From an uncultured Cocleimonas sp. (lineage in GTDB: Bacteria > Pseudomonadota > Gammaproteobacteria > Thiotrichales > Thiotrichaceae), in assembly GCF_947495625.1 (NCBI RefSeq), contig NZ_CANLZW010000047.1, positions 1-34,489 on the forward strand: a DNA stretch of 34,489 bases, read 5' to 3'. This document shows positions 1 through 11,136 of this stretch, piece by piece (within the stretch, counting starts at the first letter, position 1; each line of letters starts with the position of its first letter). A model generated the notes under the pieces. The model saw only the letters and a program-made list of their open reading frames with translations. It was not told where the DNA came from and ran no database searches. The position numbers and the translations under genes were made by a program.

Positions 1-3000
1 GTAACGATAACTCAGACAGAAGGTGTTGGCAGTAGCTTCACGATGCCGGATGAGAGTGTCACGTGTACCTTAACGAATACGCGAAAGAGTGCGACCTTGA
101 CTTTACAGAAAACATGGGTAGATGGCGAATCAGGTGATACCGCGAGTCTAACAGCGGATGGAAGTACAGACGGTCCGGTAGATATTACTCATAACTCAAT
201 TTCAACGGGTAGTAATACAGATAAAGACACAGATACTCTAACTATTTTTGCAGGTGATACAGTATCGGTAGAAGAATCGTTAGGTTCTACTAATTTAGGT
301 AGTTACGATTCAGTCCTATTGTGCACAAATGGAGCGTCAGGTTCTACAACTGGTAATTTCATCGTACCAGAAACCCCAGTAGATGTGACATGTACCTTTA
401 CTAATACTCGTAAAGATGCAGAACTAATTCTAATTAAGACATCTGACTACTTAACTTCGGGTGATACTGATGGTTCTGGTGATTTGAGTGTCGGTGATGT
501 GATCACCTATACCATGACTGCCACCAACAGTGGTGCCACGGCGTTAACCAATGTGACGATTACGGACGACTTTATCAGTGGTGCATTGAGTTGTACGCCA
601 GCCAATGGTTCAACATTGGCGATTGGTGCAACCCTGGTGTGTGAAGGTACGTATACCGTTGTAGCAGGGGATGTGGGTACTACCATCATCAATACTGCGA
701 GTGCCACCTCCGATCAGGATGATGCCCCGGATGCCACCGTGAACAACCCGGTCGCAAGTCCAGAATTAAGTCTTACCAAGACCTCCGACTACTTAACTTC
801 GGGTGATACTGATGGTTCTGGTGATTTGAGTGTCGGTGATGTGATCACCTATACCATGACTGCCACCAACAGTGGTGCCACGGCGTTAACCAATGTGACG
901 ATTACGGACGACTTTATCAGTGGTGCATTGAGTTGTACGCCAGCCAATGGTTCAACATTGGCGATTGGTGTAACCCTGGTGTGTGAAGGTACGTATACCG
1001 TTGTAGCAGGGGATGTGGGTACTACCATCACCAATACTGCGAGTGTCACCTCCGATCAGTATGATGCCCCGGATGCCACCGTGAACAACCCGGTCGCAAG
1101 TCCAGAATTAAGTCTTACCAAGACCTCCGACTACTTAACTTCGGGTGATACTGATGGTTCTGGTGATTTGAGTGTCGGTGATGTGATCACCTATACCATG
1201 ACTGCCACCAACAGTGGTGCCACGGCGTTAACCAATGTGACGATTACGGACGACTTTATCAGTGGTGCATTGAGTTGTACGCCAGCCAATGGTTCAACAT
1301 TGGCGATCGGTGCAACGCTGGTGTGTGAAGGTACGTATACCGTTGTAGCAGGGGATGTGGGTACTACCATCACCAATACTGCGAGTGCCACCTCCGATCA
1401 GGGTGATGCCCCGGACGCAACCGTGAACAATTCGGTGGAAACACCAGAAATAACTTTAGTCAAAGAAGAGCCTACTAATAATGATGCTGATGGTAGTGGA
1501 AATGTTAGTGTTGGAGATACTCTGACTTATACAGTAACTGCTACTAACGGTGGTTCGGTTTCTTTGACAAACGTTATTGTGAGTGATCCTAAGATTACAC
1601 AAACTGGTGGTACAACACCTTGTGATGTTGTTGCACCAGGTGGAACGTGTACTTTAATTGGAACCTATCTAGTAACAGCTGCTGATGCAACTAACGGCAA
1701 TATAGTTAATATTGCAACTGCGAATAGTGACCAAACTGATCCTGTAGATGCGGAAGTTACTACACCTGTAGTCAATCTAATCCCAAGTCTTTCTATTAAT
1801 AAGGCATTTACATCAAATGCTGATGAAGATGGTAATGGTCAAGTCAGCCTTGGTGATACATTAACTTACACTGTTACAGGAGTTAATGATGGTCAACTAA
1901 CATTGACTAATGTCACCATTAGCGATGCCAAGATAAGTCCAAGCAATGCGACTTGTGCCTCTTTACCAGTTGGAAGTTCATGTGTCTTGACTGGTACTTA
2001 TACAGTTACTTCAGCTGATGTTACTGCGGGTAGTATCCTAAATACCGGAACAGTAAGTAGTAATCAGACACCACCCGCAGATGATAGTGTAACGGTGGAT
2101 GTGCCTAGACCAAGTCTTGCTATAGATAAAGTTCTGACTAGTAATGCTGACGAAGATGGAAGTGGTAATGCCAGTGTAGGAGATACATTAACTTATACTA
2201 TTACTGCTACCAATAATGGTGCAGCCGTACTTACCAACGTTATTGTTAGTGATCCACAGTTGACTCCTAAAACTTTGACTTGTCCTATTTTACAAGTAGG
2301 AGAGAAGTGTACTTTAGTGGGCACCTACGTAGTTACCTTGGCAGATGCTGCTGCGGGTGAATTCAAGAATACAGGTACGGGTGATACTGCTCAAACAGCA
2401 CCTGTGAATGACTCAGTTACCATTGAAATCTTTAAGCAACCGCTGAAAATATCTGGTGTGGTTTACGACAGTACAACTCGTGACCCAATAGAAACTGTGA
2501 TACTACAATTAGTGAATTCTGCAGGAATTCCAGTTGATGATGCTTGTCTTGGTGCAGATCAACAAAATCAGGTGACGAAAGTCGATGGATTCTATCAATT
2601 TGATATTCTTCCGTCAGCTCATGAGTCTTGTGATGAGGATGATACCTATAGAATAAAAGTTGTTACTGTTCCAGAAGGATATTTCCCCGGTAGTTCAGTA
2701 ATACCTGTAGAGACTACGTCATTTGATAGTCATCCTACTGAACCTGTATGTACATTAGATATGATTGCTAATAGTTCTAATTGTGAAGTACAGGTGCAAG
2801 GGATTGCTCCAGTTGACCAACAAGATACGACTTACTTTGTTGAATTTGTTCTTCACTCAGATGATAACGATGTTATTAATAATCATATTCCATTAGATCC
2901 ACCAAATTTATTGGTCTTTGATGAAAACTCAATTCTATTGAGCAAGACTGTTAATAAGAAGCAGGTAAGTATTGCGGATCAGCTTTACTACACACTCCGT

Positions 3001-4464
3001 GCAGAAAATCTGGTAGATGGTGAAGTCACTGCTGATATTAAAGATGATTTACCAACAGGCTTTAAATTAGTTTCAAGAAACGTGAAACTAACAAGAGCGG
3101 GTGTCGATAAAAAGTTAGGTACAAAAGATGATGTCGTAACGACAGTTCCCGTAAAAGGTTATGATCCCGTTCGATTTGGTCCTATAGATTTTGTACCATT
3201 CGAAATAGTTCAGGTTGGTTATCTACTTAAGGTTGGCACGGGGGTTCGTCAAGGTAACTGGATTAATACTGCGCAAGTATTTGATACAGGCACTACTACA
3301 CCAATTAGTAACATTGCGACTGCGAGTGTCCAGGTTGTTGCTGATAGTGTGCTTGATGATGCAACCCTGATCGGTAAAGTCTTCCATGATAGAGATGGTG
3401 ATGGTTATCAAGACCCTGCGAACGCAACGGGTATCACGGTTAAGAGTGATTACTTTGGTTGGAATAGCCTACACCTTGGTGGATTGACAGGAAGAGTCAG
3501 TGTTCTGGATGACCCTGCGAAGCATCGTAAGATTATTCGTATGCCTTACTCGAAGAATAACCGCTATAGAGTGACTACTCAGCAAGGTACAGTTATTAAT
3601 GTTGATCATAAAGGTCAGATTTCTGAAGCGCATGTAGGCGCTAAAGCTAAAGGTCTCACGGGACAAGACTTACGTGTTACTACTCGTAGGATTAAGGGTA
3701 TACCAACACCTACCAAAGTTGCCAAAATGAAGAGACCTGCTGTTAATGCTGATGTGCTTGAAATCACTATCACTAACATGGGTATTCATGAGGAAGGTAT
3801 ACCAGGCGTCCGTCTAGCTACCGTTAAAGGTTTAGTGATAGAAACAGATGGGTTTGGTCGATATCACATACCAGATGTCGATGCTGGTAGACGTGGTTGG
3901 GGCAGGAACTTCATCATTAAAGTTGATGCCGCAACATTACCTAAAGGTTCTAAATTCACAACAGAGAACCCACGTGTATTAAGGATTACAAATACTGCAC
4001 TCAATAAGATTAATTTCGGTGTGAAGTTACCGGTACAGGATCCATGGATAAAACGTATACATCAACCTGCTAAGTATCGTAAAGAAACCAGGAAGCATGT
4101 TACTAAACGTCAAGTCCCTGTCTATCAAATGGTAGAAGTGAATTTAGGCTCGATCTTCTTCGATAAAGATAAGCACCATATCCGTGCTGATCAACTTGGA
4201 AATATGAACCTGATGGCAAATCGTATTAAACAATATGGTCATGGACATATAACCATTGATGCACATACCGATTCGCGTCATACCGCTAAATACAATGTTG
4301 ATCTTGCAAGACGACGGGCATTTACCGTGAGGCAAGAATTACAGAAGCGATTAGGTTCTAGGTTGATGAAAAATGTGAAAGTGGAGGTTGACCCTCGAGC
4401 TCTCAGAGAGGTACCGCATAACGATCCGAGATCTATTGATTATAACGTATCAGGGCAGAGGTAA
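1..4464 (+). CDS. Giant DUF11-repeat surface protein with C-terminal OmpA-like domain (5' truncated by the window)
   Basis: The frame is open from base 1, so the start lies outside the window; the ATG at 43 is internal. The order seen is: prealbumin/SpaA-like beta modules ending in VTCT(F/L)TNTRK (about 1-420); six DUF11 ('conserved repeat') modules (about 424-2440), each with the signature S-x-GD-x-(I/L)-TYT...N and NTA/NTG endings; a Cna-B/carboxypeptidase-regulatory-like module (about 2440-2900); further DUF11-like and Cna-B-like segments, including a DRDGDGYQDP stretch; and an OmpA-like domain (about 4130-4380) with FDKDK, the HTD aspartate and the LARRRA arginine that bind peptidoglycan in this family. 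DUF11 and Cna-B modules are typical of long extracellular stalks. I infer a stalk anchored to peptidoglycan at its C terminus. The next gene starts 5 bases after the stop, so the two are probably co-transcribed. Ligand and role are unknown. Confidence 0.85.
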   Translation, partial: VTITQTEGVGSSFTMPDESVTCTLTNTRKSATLTLQKTWVDGESGDTASLTADGSTDGPVDITHNSISTGSNTDKDTDTLTIFAGDTVSVEESLGSTNLGSYDSVLLCTNGASGSTTGNFIVPETPVDVTCTFTNTRKDAELILIKTSDYLTSGDTDGSGDLSVGDVITYTMTATNSGATALTNVTITDDFISGALSCTPANGSTLAIGATLVCEGTYTVVAGDVGTTIINTASATSDQDDAPDATVNNPVASPELSLTKTSDYLTSGDTDGSGDLSVGDVITYTMTATNSGATALTNVTITDDFISGALSCTPANGSTLAIGVTLVCEGTYTVVAGDVGTTITNTASVTSDQYDAPDATVNNPVASPELSLTKTSDYLTSGDTDGSGDLSVGDVITYTMTATNSGATALTNVTITDDFISGALSCTPANGSTLAIGATLVCEGTYTVVAGDVGTTITNTASATSDQGDAPDATVNNSVETPEITLVKEEPTNNDADGSGNVSVGDTLTYTVTATNGGSVSLTNVIVSDPKITQTGGTTPCDVVAPGGTCTLIGTYLVTAADATNGNIVNIATANSDQTDPVDAEVTTPVVNLIPSLSINKAFTSNADEDGNGQVSLGDTLTYTVTGVNDGQLTLTNVTISDAKISPSNATCASLPVGSSCVLTGTYTVTSADVTAGSILNTGTVSSNQTPPADDSVTVDVPRPSLAIDKVLTSNADEDGSGNASVGDTLTYTITATNNGAAVLTNVIVSDPQLTPKTLTCPILQVGEKCTLVGTYVVTLADAAAGEFKNTGTGDTAQTAPVNDSVTIEIFKQPLKISGVVYDSTTRDPIETVILQLVNSAGIPVDDACLGADQQNQVTKVDGFYQFDILPSAHESCDEDDTYRIKVVTVPEGYFPGSSVIPVETTSFDSHPTEPVCTLDMIANSSNCEVQVQGIAPVDQQDTTYFVEFVLHSDDNDVINNHIPLDPPNLLVFDENSILLSKTVNKKQVSIADQLYYTLRAENLVDGEVTADIKDDLPTGFKLVSRNVKLTRAGVDKKLGTKDDVVTTVPVKGYDPVRFGPIDFVPFEIVQVGYLLKVGTGVRQGNWINTAQVFDTGTTTPISNIATASVQVVADSVLDDATLIGKVFHDRDGDGYQDPANATGITVKSDYFGWNSLHLGGLTGRVSVLDDPAKHRKIIRMPYSKNNRYRVTTQQGTVINVDHKGQISEAHVGAKAKGLTGQDLRVTTRRIKGIPTPTKVAKMKRPAVNADVLEITITNMGIHEEGIPGVRLATVKGLVIETDGFGRYHIPDVDAGRRGWGRNFIIKVDAATLPKGSKFTTENPRVLRITNTALNKINFGVKLPVQDPWIKRIHQPAKYRKETRKHVTKRQVPVYQMVEVNLGSIFFDKDKHHIRADQLGNMNLMANRIKQYGHGHITIDAHTDSRHTAKYNVDLARRRAFTVRQELQKRLGSRLMKNVKVEVDPRALREVPHNDPRSIDYNVSGQR
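439..1438 (+). repeat. Three nearly identical 342-bp tandem copies encoding DUF11 modules
   Basis: Copies begin at 439, 781 and 1123, each 342 bp (114 codons), and differ at only a few bases (for example around 970 and 1312, and in the codons near 715, 1057 and 1399). The third copy breaks down near 1436. The three DUF11 modules that follow (about 1440-2440) keep the protein pattern but have quite different DNA. By eye the identical copies are also richer in G and C than their flanks. This fits recent amplification or gene conversion; copy number may vary between strains. Confidence 0.95.
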
Positions 4465-4469
4465 TAGAG

Positions 4470-7400
4470 ATGAAAAAGAATTTAACAAAAACTAGCCTTA
4501 AGCATCAGCCTCTAAAAGAGAATAGAAGTGTAGAAATATATAAATTGTTCTCAGGCTTAGCTTTATGCAGTATTGCGGCTGTTACTGGTGTGGTATATGC
4601 AGAAGAAAATACACCTGACGCATTTACTTTGCGTATTACCACACATGGTGAGGGTGTTAATAGATCCGATAACATGAGTGAGCCTGCACGACAGGATAAT
4701 CGTCGAACTGATGTAAAAATTAAAACAAAAGTTCAAACAGGGACGCGAACTGTAACCGATGAAACATTTGAGGAAGTAAATGTAAAAGTCAGTGATGCTA
4801 TAAATAGATCAATTCGCTTAAATGATGGTGGCTCAATTTGGGTAACAAAAGACCCTGCTTCTTTGACGCCGGTTTTAAATGTAACTAGCAGTCAAACTGT
4901 AAAAATGGATTCAGGAAAATTTGAAACCCCATTAAATTTCAATATTTATACTAACTATGCTTATTTTATTGATACATGGGAATTGTCTGTATATAGAAAA
5001 GCGGATGAGGCACAAGAAAAACCTTTAGTCATTTTTACAGGTAAAGATTTAGATAATGGTCGAGTAGTTAAATGGAATGGCTCAGTAGATAAGGGTGAAA
5101 AGCTGTTAGCAGGAGATGAAGTTACTTATGTTTTAACTGTTAAAGATAAAACAGGGCACTTTGACGAAACACATCTACGAACCATTAGACTCGCTGGTCC
5201 TGAAGAAAATATTACGGAAGTACAAAATGATACTAGTAATACCGGTAAATACGATAATAATTTAGCACGCCAGACTATTCCAATTCAGGGTTCACGAGTT
5301 CGTATTCATGGACGTGATATTGCTACTGGAAATAGAGTCCAAGTTGGTGAAGAGCAAGTTAGCATTGTTGATAATAAGTTCGTTGTTGAAAAATTGTTAC
5401 CAGATGGAAAGCATCAATTTGATATAAACATAGTTGACAATAATAAAGAAAAATATAACAAGCCACTTAAGGTTGAGCTTGATAGTAAGTATATGTTTAT
5501 GGTCGGCTTAGCTGACGTTACTATTGGTGAGAGTGAGGTAAAAGGTAATTTAGAAACACTCAGTGACGGTGATGAAAGACTTGATGGTGATATTTTCGTA
5601 GACGGACGTTTGGCCTTTTACCTAAAAGGAAAGATAAAAGGAAAGTATCTGGTAACTGCTCAGATGGATACCGGAACAGCTCCTATCGAAGACTTGTTTG
5701 ACGATATTCATAAAAAAGATCCACGTAGTTTATTCCGTAGACTCGATCCGGATAAATATTACCCCGTCTATGGTGATGATTCGACGTTAATTGATGACAC
5801 AGATAGCCAGGGTAAGCTCTATGTCCGAGTTGATTGGGATAAATCTCGTGCTATATGGGGTAACTACAACACAAGTATCACGGGTACTGAATTAAGCTCA
5901 TTTAATCGTAGCTTATATGGCGCAAAACTTGCCTATAAAAGCACCCAGATTACTAAAGAAGGTGATCATAAAAAAGCGCTTACAGTTTTTGCCTCAGAGG
6001 CCCAAAGTGCATTTCGACACAATCAATTTTTAGGTACAGGTGGTAGTCTTTATTACCTTAAAGACACAGATATTGTTGATGGTTCAGAAAAAGTCTGGAT
6101 AGAGATTCGCCAAAAAGGCAGCGATCGAGCGATTAGTAAGATTGAGATGGAAGAAGGTCGAGATTATGAAATCGATGATTTCCAAGGTCGCATTATTCTC
6201 CATCGTCCCTTATTACAAATTGCCGCACAGTCGAATCCATCATTGATCAAAGATACACCACTTGACGGTGATCAAGTCTACTTAATGGTAGATTATGAGT
6301 ATGTGCCTGATGACTTTGCGACGGATAAAGCGAGTTATGGCGCAAATGGTAAAATCTGGTTAACTGATACATTTGCAGTAGGTGGTACCTATGCTCATGA
6401 AAATAGAGATCTAGATGATTATGATTTAAAAGGGATAGACCTCACTTATAAGAAAGGTAAAGGAACATACATAAAAGGCGAGTACGCAGAGAGTGAATCT
6501 TCGCAAACTCAAGGAAGTTTTTTCTCAGAAGATGGTGGATTAAATTTCAATTCTTTCAATGATACTACCTCTCCACCAAATAAAAGTGGAAGTGCTTTTA
6601 GTCTAGAAGCTAGAGCTAATTTGCAAAATTTTACCAATAAAGAAGGTTCCATTGGGGCTTGGTATAAAGAAAGGGAAGCAGGTTTTTCTACGTCACGATT
6701 AGATAATGGTGAAGAGACGATAGAAGCCGGGCTCGAGGCAATATTAAAAGCAACTGAAAAGTTGAATGCTTCTGTGCGTGCTACCTTGCTCGATAGAAAA
6801 GAAACCTTGAAGACAATAACAGCTAGTGTTCAAGCTGATTACAAGCTAAATGATAAGACTACTCTCAGTGGTGAAATCAAGCATATAAAAGAAGAAGATT
6901 ATCTTGATAACACTAAAGATGGAGACGGTACATTAGCTGCTTTTAAAGTTGGTTATGACTTAAATAAAGATGTAAATCTATATGCAATACTTCAAGGAAC
7001 ACTAAATAAAAGTGGAGCATATGAAGATAACAATTTACTTACACTAGGTGCAAAAGCCAAGCTGAGTGATAAGCTTGATTTCAACGCTGAATTCAGCACG
7101 GGTGACCGTGGTGAAGCTGGTACTTTAGGCGCTAGTTATAAAATGAGTAAAGACTATAGTTTATACACGAACTATACGTTATCTACTGATCGTACAGATG
7201 GTGAACGAAATATTTTCACTGTAGGTCAACGTAGATCTGTCACTAATCAACTTAAAGTATATACCGAACATCAATTCACACATGAAGATAAACAAAGTGG
7301 AACAGGACATACATTCGGTTTAGATTACGACATAAATAAAGCAACCACTTTAAATACGTCTTTTCAGACAGCTAGACTCGACAAGAGAGACACTGGTCTA

Positions 7401-8123
7401 GTTGATAGAGATGCATTTTCTGTAGGTTTAACACATAAAAATGATAAGACAGATGCTAGTACTAAACTTGAGTATAGACGTGATAAAGGCACCAATGAAA
7501 GCACAGAACAATGGGTAACTACTAACCGTATTAGTCATCGTTTAAGTCCATCTTTCAGATTACAAGGTAAGCTAAATTTCTCTGAAACAAAAGATAAAAT
7601 AAGTAGTCAACTCGATGCTCGATTTGTAGAAGCAGGTTTTGGTTTTGCATATAGACCAGTACATAACGATCGTCTGAATCTACTAGGTCGATTAACCTAT
7701 TTATATGATTTACAGCCATTATCTCAAAGTACTTTAGCAGATGAGAAGTCGCTTACATTTAGTTTGGAAGGAAACTATCAACTCAATCAAAAGTGGGGTG
7801 TAGGAGGAAAGCTAGCTCATAAGTTAGGAGAAACCCGAGCAGACAGAAATGCTGGAGCATGGGAGAAAAATGATGCTACCTTAGCTGCAGCACGTGTTAG
7901 ATACCATTTAACTAGTAAATGGGATGCAATGGCTGAATATCATTGGATGAATTCTGATGAATCACAAGATACCCAGCACGGCGCAATGATATCCTTAGAT
8001 CGGCATATAGGAAAAAATATGAAAATTGGAATAGGTTATAACTTTTCTGACTTTGATGATGACCTAAGCAATACAACTGGATCTACGAAAGGATGGTTTA
8101 TTAATCTTGTAGGAAAGTATTAA
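4470..8123 (+). CDS. Large outer-membrane beta-barrel protein, partner of the DUF11/OmpA protein
   Basis: This 1217-residue protein has an extended signal peptide: a basic N-region of about 25 residues, then a hydrophobic core ending VVYA before Glu45. Residues of about 45-340 look like periplasmic beta-sandwich modules, including RIHGRDIATG and a stretch of short KDxTG/NIVDNN-type strands. The rest, from about residue 345, alternates polar and hydrophobic residues in repeated amphipathic strands (for example LDARFVEAGFGFAYRP). It ends GWFINLVGKY, with the terminal aromatic residue typical of barrels recognised by the Bam machinery. It lacks a clear TonB box and plug domain, so I do not call it a TonB-dependent receptor. 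It starts 5 bases after the upstream stop with a weak GAGG ribosome site. I infer that it displays or exports the upstream stalk protein, or forms an envelope complex with it. An intrinsic terminator follows at 8241-8266. Confidence 0.75.
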   Translation: MKKNLTKTSLKHQPLKENRSVEIYKLFSGLALCSIAAVTGVVYAEENTPDAFTLRITTHGEGVNRSDNMSEPARQDNRRTDVKIKTKVQTGTRTVTDETFEEVNVKVSDAINRSIRLNDGGSIWVTKDPASLTPVLNVTSSQTVKMDSGKFETPLNFNIYTNYAYFIDTWELSVYRKADEAQEKPLVIFTGKDLDNGRVVKWNGSVDKGEKLLAGDEVTYVLTVKDKTGHFDETHLRTIRLAGPEENITEVQNDTSNTGKYDNNLARQTIPIQGSRVRIHGRDIATGNRVQVGEEQVSIVDNKFVVEKLLPDGKHQFDINIVDNNKEKYNKPLKVELDSKYMFMVGLADVTIGESEVKGNLETLSDGDERLDGDIFVDGRLAFYLKGKIKGKYLVTAQMDTGTAPIEDLFDDIHKKDPRSLFRRLDPDKYYPVYGDDSTLIDDTDSQGKLYVRVDWDKSRAIWGNYNTSITGTELSSFNRSLYGAKLAYKSTQITKEGDHKKALTVFASEAQSAFRHNQFLGTGGSLYYLKDTDIVDGSEKVWIEIRQKGSDRAISKIEMEEGRDYEIDDFQGRIILHRPLLQIAAQSNPSLIKDTPLDGDQVYLMVDYEYVPDDFATDKASYGANGKIWLTDTFAVGGTYAHENRDLDDYDLKGIDLTYKKGKGTYIKGEYAESESSQTQGSFFSEDGGLNFNSFNDTTSPPNKSGSAFSLEARANLQNFTNKEGSIGAWYKEREAGFSTSRLDNGEETIEAGLEAILKATEKLNASVRATLLDRKETLKTITASVQADYKLNDKTTLSGEIKHIKEEDYLDNTKDGDGTLAAFKVGYDLNKDVNLYAILQGTLNKSGAYEDNNLLTLGAKAKLSDKLDFNAEFSTGDRGEAGTLGASYKMSKDYSLYTNYTLSTDRTDGERNIFTVGQRRSVTNQLKVYTEHQFTHEDKQSGTGHTFGLDYDINKATTLNTSFQTARLDKRDTGLVDRDAFSVGLTHKNDKTDASTKLEYRRDKGTNESTEQWVTTNRISHRLSPSFRLQGKLNFSETKDKISSQLDARFVEAGFGFAYRPVHNDRLNLLGRLTYLYDLQPLSQSTLADEKSLTFSLEGNYQLNQKWGVGGKLAHKLGETRADRNAGAWEKNDATLAAARVRYHLTSKWDAMAEYHWMNSDESQDTQHGAMISLDRHIGKNMKIGIGYNFSDFDDDLSNTTGSTKGWFINLVGKY

Positions 8124-8354: not shown

Positions 8355-9965
8355 TCAATTCAGATTTTTCAATTTTGCATATATTTCAATGCCGTTATTG
8401 TTACCCATATCAGCTGCTTTTTTAGCATTTCTTTTAGCCGATTTAATATCTCTGTTGTGATAATAAGTACCTGCAACTTCAGCATAGGCTCGGGCATCAT
8501 TGGGTTTTAATTCTATATATTGATTCCAGTATTGGATTATGAGATTCCAGTCTCTGTTAGATTTAACGACTAAGTAATCCAGCATAAGATAATGATTATA
8601 ATTTTCTGGCTCTAATTCAATAGCTGTTTTGATATCTGCTAAAGCTAGCGCATGTTTGCGTTCGTCATAATAGGCTCTAGCTCGTTGGTTAAATAGATCA
8701 CCATTGTCAGGATCGTATTTTATTGCAGTAGAGTATTTTTCTATCGCTGACTTTGTGTCTCCTTCACTTTTAACATCATAAGCTTCTCTTGAAAGTTTAG
8801 ACGCAACCCAGCGTTTTTTATCTCTAATCGAGTTATCGTAAGGGTCTAACTCATAGGCGTAATTAAGGTCATCTGCTGCTTTATTGTATTGATTCAAACC
8901 GATGTATGCTTTTGCTCTCCAATAGAAATATAAGGGCCAATCTGAGCTAATTTCAATTGCTTTATTTAAACTGTTTATCGCTTTTTTATACTCTTCAAGT
9001 CTGACGTAGTTTTCGCCACGCTCGTAAAATGCACCACTATTCTCTCCAAATTTTGTACCTGAGTTAAACATGAGACTTGCAAGTTCATATTCTTTTTTGA
9101 GGGCTAGTACATTACCTTTATCAATATAGATTGCAGATTCAAGTTGTTTTAACTTCGGATTTAGTTTCACAAATTGTGCAGTTTCATTTATAAAATTTTG
9201 CATTTCTTGATATGAGCCACCCCAGCGTGGAGTTAAAGATGCGAGATATATATTTCTTAGATTATAAGTAGCTGGATATAGTGTAAGTGCTTTCTTGAGT
9301 ACAGCTTTTGCATCTTCATTAGAGCCTTGAGATTTAACCACTCTCATCAAGATTTCATATAATACGATTGAGTCATCGTTAAGATCTAATCCTGTGTTCA
9401 GATCATTAGCTGCTTTCTTCAAGTATTGTCCCATTTCATATTTTTGTTTTTCAGGAGTACTAAAGGAATAATTATTACCACGGGCTTTCCATGACATAGC
9501 GTAGCGATACTTTGCCCTTGCTGCATAAGGAATATAAGAATCAGGCGTTGCCTTTACCCAATTATCGAATAAAGATTCGAATGATTCTTTTTTGATGAAG
9601 AATGATTCATATGCCATGAATAATTCTCCCTCATTTTTTATGTCTTTCTTAAATGATTGATCTAATTTACTAAGAATCTTATTTAATTTTACAAATTCCT
9701 TTTGTTTTAACAGCGTTCTTAATCTTATTCTGATGCTTTTAGTAGTCGTTTTCTGAGAGTTAGTAAGAGATTTTTTAGTGTTTTTTGAAACAGGTATAAC
9801 CTTCACTTTCCCTGAGCCATCAACTTTTATTTTTTTTGCTGACACATGGGGTTTATCACTAAAGTGGGTTTGACCGTTAGCATCAATCCATTTATACATC
9901 TGGGCATTTGCTAAAGTAGAAGATAAAAGTATCGAGCAGACTGTTAGAGCTTTATATATTTTCAT
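8355..9965 (-). CDS. Secreted DUF4124/TPR-repeat protein
   Basis: This 536-residue protein has a signal peptide (MKIYKALTVCSILLSSTLANA, cleavage near residue 21/22). A DUF4124 motif follows directly (MYKWIDANGQTHFSDKPH), a small domain common at the N terminus of gammaproteobacterial periplasmic proteins. A basic linker leads to many tetratricopeptide repeats over roughly residues 115-530, with clear TPR helices such as AFYERGENYVRLEEYKKAIN and the LNKAIEIS-type second helix. TPR arrays bind proteins; the partner cannot be read here. It is a single gene that converges on the barrel gene, with no obvious operon mate. The start is supported by the signal peptide; its ribosome site is weak. Confidence 0.85.
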   Translation of the reverse strand: MKIYKALTVCSILLSSTLANAQMYKWIDANGQTHFSDKPHVSAKKIKVDGSGKVKVIPVSKNTKKSLTNSQKTTTKSIRIRLRTLLKQKEFVKLNKILSKLDQSFKKDIKNEGELFMAYESFFIKKESFESLFDNWVKATPDSYIPYAARAKYRYAMSWKARGNNYSFSTPEKQKYEMGQYLKKAANDLNTGLDLNDDSIVLYEILMRVVKSQGSNEDAKAVLKKALTLYPATYNLRNIYLASLTPRWGGSYQEMQNFINETAQFVKLNPKLKQLESAIYIDKGNVLALKKEYELASLMFNSGTKFGENSGAFYERGENYVRLEEYKKAINSLNKAIEISSDWPLYFYWRAKAYIGLNQYNKAADDLNYAYELDPYDNSIRDKKRWVASKLSREAYDVKSEGDTKSAIEKYSTAIKYDPDNGDLFNQRARAYYDERKHALALADIKTAIELEPENYNHYLMLDYLVVKSNRDWNLIIQYWNQYIELKPNDARAYAEVAGTYYHNRDIKSAKRNAKKAADMGNNNGIEIYAKLKNLN

Positions 9966-10290: not shown

Positions 10291-10448
10291 GAACCAGATG
10301 CGAAAATAGAAAACCTACGTCATTTAAATGGATAGCATCTAGAACTAAATGAATATCCTGTGTACTTACAAACAAGGGCTGTAGGTTGTATTAGGAACAA
10401 CATTCGACATTACTTAGACTACTTGTATCAAAATAATAATTAAATCTT

Positions 10449-10551: not shown

Positions 10552-11136
10552 ATGCTAAAACGTTTTGTAATATTCGGAGCGAGCTCGGTGTTGTTATTTG
10601 CTTGTAATACTAGCGAAGTGAAGGATTCTGATGCGGGCAGTGTTGCAAGCTCTAAAGTAAGCAAGGGTGCAAATGCCAAAGAGTTTTTGGCTGCTCATAA
10701 CAGGGCGAGAGCAGCTAAAGGTGTACCTGCTTTGGTTTGGTCTGAGAGCCTTGCACGTTATGCGAAGCAATGGGCTGAAGAGCTTAACCGGAGTAAGAGT
10801 TGCGATATAGTGCATCGTCCCAGGTCTGGGAAATTTAAACAGTTGTATGGTGAGAATTTGTATTATGCGAGTGCAATACGCTGGAGCAGTGGCAAAAGAG
10901 AGCTTCAAAACATATCTTCAACTAAAGTTGTAGGTGATTGGGTTTCTGAGAAAGCTGATTATAATTACAAAACGAATACCTGTAATGCAGGTCAAATGTG
11001 TGGACATTATACGCAGGTGATGTGGAAGAATTCTACGGCTGTGGGTTGTGCGGTTTCGGTATGTGACAATAAGTCACAGGTTTGGGTGTGTAATTATAAT
11101 CCACCAGGGAATTACGAGGGACAACGTCCGTTTTAA
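10552..11136 (+). CDS. CAP-domain (SCP/PR1-like) lipoprotein
   Basis: This 194-residue protein has a lipoprotein signal with lipobox LFAC (Cys18), followed by a Ser/Lys-rich linker. The CAP domain begins near residue 43: FLAAHNRARAAKGVPALVW, a histidine near 88, the glutamate of GENLYY near 101, the CAP1 signature GHYTQVMWKNSTAVGC and the CAP2 signature WVCNYNPPGNYEG at the C-terminus. These supply the His/Glu cluster typical of CAP proteins, and several cysteines could form disulfides. Bacterial members are secreted or surface-exposed; activities vary (binding, proteolysis, envelope roles) and none can be assigned here. An AAGGAG ribosome site lies about 10 bases before the ATG. It is a single gene with E2 upstream and E3 downstream. 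Confidence 0.9.
   Translation: MLKRFVIFGASSVLLFACNTSEVKDSDAGSVASSKVSKGANAKEFLAAHNRARAAKGVPALVWSESLARYAKQWAEELNRSKSCDIVHRPRSGKFKQLYGENLYYASAIRWSSGKRELQNISSTKVVGDWVSEKADYNYKTNTCNAGQMCGHYTQVMWKNSTAVGCAVSVCDNKSQVWVCNYNPPGNYEGQRPF

Follow-up and report, generated by a model that had tools for sequence, protein, structure and literature searches.

The question raised by this locus is how the products of two neighboring genes, a giant stalk built of repeats and a very large outer-membrane barrel, might be held together. The locus lies in a stretch of 34,489 nucleotides from an uncultured Cocleimonas sp., which was analyzed as a whole and is referred to as the window (contig C47, window bases 1-34489, starting at contig base 1). 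Here, a stalk frame of 1487 amino acids (aa) spans 1..4464 on the plus strand and is open at the window's first base, the 5' end of the stalk gene being lost at the contig end. The barrel frame begins five bases past the stalk stop and extends over 4470-8123, which confirms the gap and the 1217-residue second gene described in an earlier note on this DNA. That note also placed a peptidoglycan-binding OmpA domain at the C-terminus of the stalk; this held for the first two thirds of the domain, whereas the last third is not found in the stalk and instead appears at the N-terminus of the barrel protein. By homology within the window's clade, the stalk end very probably represents the first two thirds of the OmpA fold and the barrel-protein N-terminus the last third.

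The stalk protein carries DUF7507/DUF11 repeats and a C-terminal OmpA match (Pfam), with DUF11 membership indicated by PF01345 (105.3 bits, cut-off 24.6) and TIGR01451 (145.7 bits, cut-off 24). In its C-terminal region, a home-made hidden Markov model (HMM) detects an SdrD-B/carboxypeptidase-regulatory-like module at approximately 3793..4020 (plus strand), which is followed at 4153..4356 (plus strand) by the first part of the OmpA-like domain, beta1-alpha1-beta2-alpha2 with a TD...N..L..RRA motif, as seen with Pfam, NCBIfam, our own HMM, and profiles. This domain is incomplete, covering positions 1-68 of 98 in PF00691 and 78-169 of 206 in the NCBIfam model YiaD; the remainder is absent from the stalk, and neither protein of the pair has a complete beta-alpha-beta-alpha-beta-beta OmpA domain. 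The barrel protein starts with what by eye resembles a signal peptide, a long charged N-region followed by a hydrophobic core ending in VVYA (4470..4601, plus strand). Its mature N-terminus, FTLRITTHGEG..SDN...ARQDNRRTDVKIK, resembles the end of an OmpA domain, and the segment at 4623..4724 (plus strand) is accordingly assigned as the beta3-beta4 last third, weak in the window alone and backed by relatives including the loci L010 and L012.

Support from these relatives was obtained with an OmpA HMM of 120 positions, built from 49 complete domains, none of which came from split loci. Stalk ends match this HMM from positions 3-4 to 73-78 (to 90 in L010 and 98 in L051), and 6 of 24 barrel N-termini match from 75-86 to 114-118. 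The latter scored 23.2 bits in L012, 22.8 in L010, 20.0 in L052, 10.8 in L018, 9.8 in L009, and 7.3 in the window, compared to 6.6 bits for the best of 2400 shuffles, 1.4 for the window's own 100 shuffles, and 1.5 for the highest-scoring of 71 further segments taken from barrels. Furthermore, profile-profile comparison over 11 loci aligned the stalk ends with OmpA at 97.7% (E 1.5e-12, columns 3-79 of 120) and the barrel N-termini at 96.3% (E 1.6e-9, columns 85-114), while the barrel part yielded 0.3% when reversed and at best 27.2% in 100 column shuffles. Among curated NCBIfam models, residues ~51-84 of the L010 barrel protein match the C-terminal ends of YiaD (173-205 of 206, E 1.9e-6), TssL (105-136 of 137), and YfiB (126-158 of 163). 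These curated models support both L010 and L012; in L010, the E-values of the matches to these three and further models start at 2.9e-7, although the scores lie far under the whole-protein cut-offs, and weak matches were found for L009, L018, and L109. In addition, an alignment inspected by eye revealed that the motif Asp and Arg, presumably those reported to bind the wall in the work on 3TD5, are kept in all 11 split stalk ends.

The place of the cut can be approached through relatives in which both proteins form one chain. The fused loci L014 and L015 harbor a complete OmpA domain (Pfam 1-98 of 98 in L014), and the structure model of L014, with a mean predicted local distance difference test score (pLDDT) of 73.1, contains strand 117-123, helix 133-146, strand 152-159, helix 176-195, strand 202-207, and strand 227-234. 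It resembles the OmpA domain of Acinetobacter, with a Foldseek template modeling (TM) score, taken by target, of 0.77-0.80 and a VIA match to 3td3_A (Z 16.0, root-mean-square deviation (rmsd) 2.9, 120 aligned); OmpA structures took up the VIA rows listed for this model, so that its beta modules were not assigned. HMM positions 79-82, the gap separating the two halves, map to model residues 197-200. As judged from this model, the halves part within the helix-2/strand-3 loop, which joins helix 176-195 to strand 202-207. In comparison to the OmpA-like domain (PF00691) of OmpA, Pal, YfiB, and TssL, both halves align in order, the Asp and Arg are retained in the stalk part, and the domain is complete in L014 and L015; what differs is its division at this loop between two proteins, both presumably secreted.

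The earlier note's suggestion of a dedicated pair was strongly supported. When genome contigs were scanned with the barrel sequence, 15 relatives were obtained, including some from Cocleimonas, Leucothrix, Granulosicoccaceae, Pseudoxanthomonas, and a Caulobacterales bin. With a barrel profile of 16 rows and 1169 positions, matches at E 1e-30 were found in 47 of 369 class-level and 53 of 398 phylum-level genomes. Near full-length barrels (at least 900 of the 1169 positions, counted by hand) occur in at least 31 of the class-level and at least 22 of the phylum-level genomes, these being lower bounds, as at most two candidates were scored per genome; four genomes are common to both sets. The remaining matches are shorter and correspond mainly to related frames of ~2000 aa or to fragments. 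A barrel match, near full-length or shorter, was present in 15 of 39 relatives. The pair is widespread in Pseudomonadota, in Gammaproteobacteria and at least one other class, presumably Alphaproteobacteria given the Caulobacterales bin.

For the analysis of pairing, 61 barrel frames with neighbors were considered, in which stalk-type frames were recognized by the SdrB-like module. This set comprises neither near full-length places for which flanks were not fetched or the contig was cut (G038/L024, G268, G214, G737, one of the two loci in G201, and further loci) nor L049, which duplicates L014, the fragment L053_10, the weak L127 (842 positions), and the distant L076-L082 and L128. A stalk-type frame lies directly upstream of the barrel in 44 of the 61, and stalk module and barrel share one frame in 12 more, the SdrB-like module being present in the stalks of all these pairs and fusions. 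The other 5 comprise L004, L011, and L060, which are cut by contig ends, L124 with reversed order (a frame that by eye looks like DUF11, with its first possible start 45 bases past the barrel stop), and the stalkless L017. Hence, of the 58 loci that no contig end interrupts, 57 keep the pair, counting the reversed neighbor judged by eye. In the 44 pairs, the spacing is an overlap of exactly 4 bases in 18, ranges from -11 to +32 bases in 15, and falls outside this range in 11 (+69 to +212, or -35 to -229 as a result of taking the first possible start). The fused forms occupy four places in the barrel tree, namely L119; L071-L075; L063; and L013, L014, L015, L050, and L052. The longest stalk frame comprises 3668 aa and one fused frame (L052) 11777 aa. 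By a crude rule, 15 of 25 stalk-bearing frames not starting at the locus edge have a signal peptide; of the rest, some are truncated and some have an apparent signal peptide by eye. Taken together, stalk and barrel are strongly supported as a real, conserved, and unnamed two-gene system. In the stalkless L017, a clustered regularly interspaced short palindromic repeats (CRISPR)-like array (L017:9305-9989; 10 copies of GTCTCAATCCGCGCCCGGTTTGGGGCGGAGGCTGAAC with a spacing of 66-75) runs into the start of the barrel gene, representing either an insertion or an assembly chimera.

In summary, homology shows that the two halves complement each other, the two genes remain linked, and stalk and barrel can also occur as a single chain, in two cases within this clade with the OmpA domain intact. 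The earlier note suggested that the barrel may secrete or anchor the stalk; for anchoring, the split OmpA domain is a concrete candidate mechanism. We propose that the two genes encode one envelope machine, in which a giant DUF11 stalk is combined with a very large outer-membrane barrel, and that both proteins would be exported by Sec. The halves would meet in the periplasm, where the barrel protein would supply strands 3 and 4 to the OmpA part of the stalk. The domain rebuilt by this fold complementation may then bind peptidoglycan, fixing the stalk's C-terminus to the barrel and the cell wall, and the N-terminal repeats may reach the surface through or beside the barrel. That the halves are rebuilt into one domain in the cell appears probable to us, and docking by this route, taken as a whole claim, only marginally less so. 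Classical OmpA and OprF combine a barrel and an OmpA domain in one chain. The proposed system would likewise tie an outer-membrane barrel to the wall via an OmpA domain, but its barrel is far larger and C-terminal, the OmpA part lies N-terminal to the barrel, and a giant stalk is attached. Similarly, DUF11/SdrD-B surface proteins share the stalk repeats and the C-terminal SdrB-like module, whereas the stalk described here is coupled to a dedicated barrel. In the accessible parts of the literature matches listed, no precedent was found for docking via a wall-binding domain split over two proteins. If correct, the proposal would add a new docking principle, in which a wall-binding domain should become whole only once a surface stalk has encountered an outer-membrane pore. 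A common but unnamed pair of giant genes would thereby become an envelope system open to testing, with a barrel possibly rivaling the largest known.

The window barrel has no Pfam family above cut-off and none at E 1 in NCBIfam, and the earlier statement that it looks like neither a TonB, an usher, nor a type Va/Vb system agrees with the absence of such families from Pfam/NCBIfam scans of this barrel or its 16-row alignment. Specifically, no plug or TonB barrel match was found at E 1 (the relative L055 has a sub-threshold TonB_dep_Rec match of 16.5 bits, cut-off 27), and there was no usher match, the stalk having a sub-threshold CooC_C match (15.8 bits, cut-off 29). One of the 16 barrel rows matches the OmpO family porin TIGR04273 (E 6.1e-6), and sequence searches of PDB resulted in one weak match with the barrel profile (E 0.066) and one with the single sequence (E 0.26), which were disregarded. 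A structure model of residues 46-1217, based on 16 sequences (mean pLDDT 71.0, predicted TM score 0.60), shows beta modules followed by a barrel, in line with the periplasmic modules described in the earlier note. The modules lie at approximately 4809..5384 (plus strand) and are presumably periplasmic; the predicted large outer-membrane beta-barrel occupies 5487..8120 (plus strand) and ends in WFINLVGKY. Counted from model residue 557 onward, the model contains 34 strands of at least 7 residues; counting from residue 296 gives 43. Many VIA porin rows span model residues 295-1172, which would fit a barrel closed between those ends. With moderate model confidence, the strand number is thus placed, with uncertainty, at 34-43. 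The top VIA row is FimD (Z 14.6, rmsd 12.0, 379 aligned), tied with porins; the top Foldseek row is SlpA of Deinococcus (E 1.0e-7, TM score by query 0.25), and SprA, the 36-stranded type IX translocon, appears in both lists (6h3i_A, VIA Z 12.6, rmsd 11.3, 500 aligned). SlpA and SprA are also very large barrels, but no sequence relation to the barrel described here was found, the TM-scores are low, and the model is of moderate confidence.

Exposure of the stalk at the surface through the barrel falls slightly short of an even chance in our estimate. A related explanation, which is compatible with split-domain docking and, like surface exposure, slightly short of an even chance, is an autotransporter-like pore: the barrel would serve mainly for export of the stalk, with the N-terminus of the latter facing outward, and the OmpA part would only fix its base. 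Type Va autotransporters consist of a long repeat region and a C-terminal barrel, and the fused forms share this arrangement, as a stalk module precedes a frame-ending barrel in the 12 fusions (the search covered modules preceding the barrel). The barrel is very large in the model, and the 11777-aa frame would be too long for the periplasm if folded as a chain of immunoglobulin-like modules. However, no translocator family of type V was detected in the Pfam and NCBIfam scans, and the system differs from types Va and Ve in that two genes are present in 44 of 61 loci and OmpA lies between repeats and barrel in this clade.

Several observations weigh against docking by a split domain. Taken by itself, the barrel half of the window gives a weak match, so that its case leans on the relatives, and no curated NCBIfam OmpA model matches the barrel N-terminus of the window, L111, or L051. 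Pfam did not detect the OmpA last third in any of the 4 barrel N-termini scanned (L009, L010, L012, and L018), and those of L051, L053, and the wider family have no match to the OmpA HMM. Omitting L010, L012, and L052 lowers the barrel-part profile to 91.3%, and the five Xanthomonadaceae-like rows (i.e., those grouped with Pseudoxanthomonas in the barrel tree) reach 23.6% alone, under the best shuffle; moreover, the profile shuffles cover barrel starts only, not stalk ends. A strand-like piece, NVKVEVDP, follows helix 2 of the stalk part, so the stalk might close its own sheet. L003, the second copy in the same genome, and L005-L008, of which L005 comes from Cocleimonas flava, keep the pair though both halves are degenerate, and the stalks of L112-L114 end 6-11 residues after the SdrB module. 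As the pair persists where the halves are degenerate or absent, other stalk-barrel contacts must exist, and split-OmpA docking is not required family-wide. Outside the clade (other Gammaproteobacteria and presumed Alphaproteobacteria), only the stalk tail is weakly OmpA-like, at 52% against OmpA (shuffles at most 2.3%), compared to 1.7% for the barrel element.

Some of these points are what would be expected of a relic, in which an old gene fission cut the OmpA domain, the stalk part folds alone, using an additional strand, and still binds the wall, and the barrel part persists without a role. The strand-like piece, seen by eye in split stalks, and the kept pairs with degenerate halves agree with this explanation. 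In contrast, OmpA-typical residues are retained in both halves of the window, L009, L018, L010, L012, and L052, which represent well separated branches of the barrel tree, and we consider a relic unlikely. Less probable still is a periplasmic spacer, i.e., a stalk lying between outer membrane and wall or along the wall, with the barrel acting as a porin-like channel. While the stalk ends in a part of OmpA, a domain of periplasmic type, stalk frames of up to 3668 aa and the fused frame of 11777 aa would exceed the span of the periplasm if extended, and the latter renders a wholly periplasmic stalk unlikely. Finally, a gene-calling or sequencing error that cut one gene into two would be consistent with the existence of fused versions but is almost certainly not the explanation, since the same cut place recurs in ten two-gene loci with barrel N-termini that by eye resemble signal peptides, and the 4-base overlap of 18 of 44 pairs is a normal operon join.

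Given split and fused forms, the direction of change was considered using the barrel tree, which was rooted by midpoint. Split domains are present in some members of the Cocleimonas/Leucothrix group and in L010/L012, with weaker support in the Xanthomonadaceae-like group. In FastTree, the fused group of L013, L014, L015, L050, and L052 (support 0.78) nests beside Cocleimonas/Leucothrix and L010/L012 (0.95 for that join, 0.60 when the Xanthomonadaceae-like group is added). Therefore, with the midpoint root, fusion looks derived. No OmpA domain was shown in the fused L013. Within this group, L052 (G112:C2, ~locus base 10433) carries a signal-peptide-like segment, MMKNLGGLLLSAVVGTAHA, between both OmpA halves in one frame, and L050 (G126:C20, ~locus base 4094), in which the halves are degenerate, carries NWRAGLGLALGLMFASANA at the matching place in one frame. 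Kyte-Doolittle maxima over 13 residues are 1.88 in L052 and 1.79 in L050; L014 has no signal-like segment at the cut site, and the maximum of L015 (1.29) lies inside an OmpA domain. We read the internal segments as scars of re-fusion; alternatively, an assembly or sequencing error or an internal translation start may lie behind them. A second case of such a fusion was not found in the families of G112 and G126 (2 and 1 genomes, G112 and G126 themselves included).

A family-wide split is not claimed, as outside the clade the N-terminal element of the barrel reached the above 1.7% against the OmpA last third and 2.0% against split barrels (hhalign), L118, which the pattern did not find, having been dropped from the element set. 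The stalk tail outside the clade reached 26% against split stalks; for this comparison and for that with OmpA, 60 column shuffles apiece gave no more than 2.4%. A pairing of cysteines between stalk tail and barrel element was likewise rejected, since no clear covariation was seen by eye and L064, L067, L115, and L117 keep the barrel cysteines without those of the stalk. Only tentatively, then, do we suggest the widest version of the proposal, which is somewhat improbable in our estimate: an unnamed envelope system of Gammaproteobacteria and at least one other class, in which a split peptidoglycan-binding domain would lock a giant stalk onto the largest kind of barrel, and in which the split may be family-wide and ancient, later re-fusions leaving signal-peptide scars.

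In the window, a tandem array of ~2.9 copies of a 342-bp DUF7507/DUF11 unit (436..1430, plus strand; 97% matches) lies close to the contig start and may have caused the assembly break there. A search of the same genome for the 5' continuation of the stalk resulted in matching frames on C56, C7, and C57, none being a clear continuation. The second copy of the pair, L003, is located on contig C12 (69% DNA identity over the queried 2124 bases), and a remote third relative is found on C8. Neighbors of the pair are a tetratricopeptide repeat protein, which is encoded on the minus strand and has DUF4124 at its N-terminus, and a CAP-domain protein (8355-9965 and 10552-11136, respectively). No Rfam match was obtained in the window at gathering scores.

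Among the relatives, the pair is followed in L010 (3954-21347) and L012 (3987-22346) by two more OmpA-domain proteins (629 and 1723 aa in L010), forming a larger cluster of wall-anchored proteins. In L053 (G224), the barrel is broken into two overlapping frames of 1122 and 180 aa, reflecting a frameshift or a sequencing error. In another barrel group (L056, L059, L061-L063, L065-L070, and L115), the HMM detects three OmpA-like domains in tandem ahead of the barrel, on its N-terminal side. Finally, a remote class (G000:C8:5700-6683; L076-L082 and L128) comprises frames of ~1700-2260 aa that share the conserved core of the barrel (profile positions ~245-650), and an OmpA domain is also present in 6 of the 8 fetched loci of this class (L076-L082 and L128).

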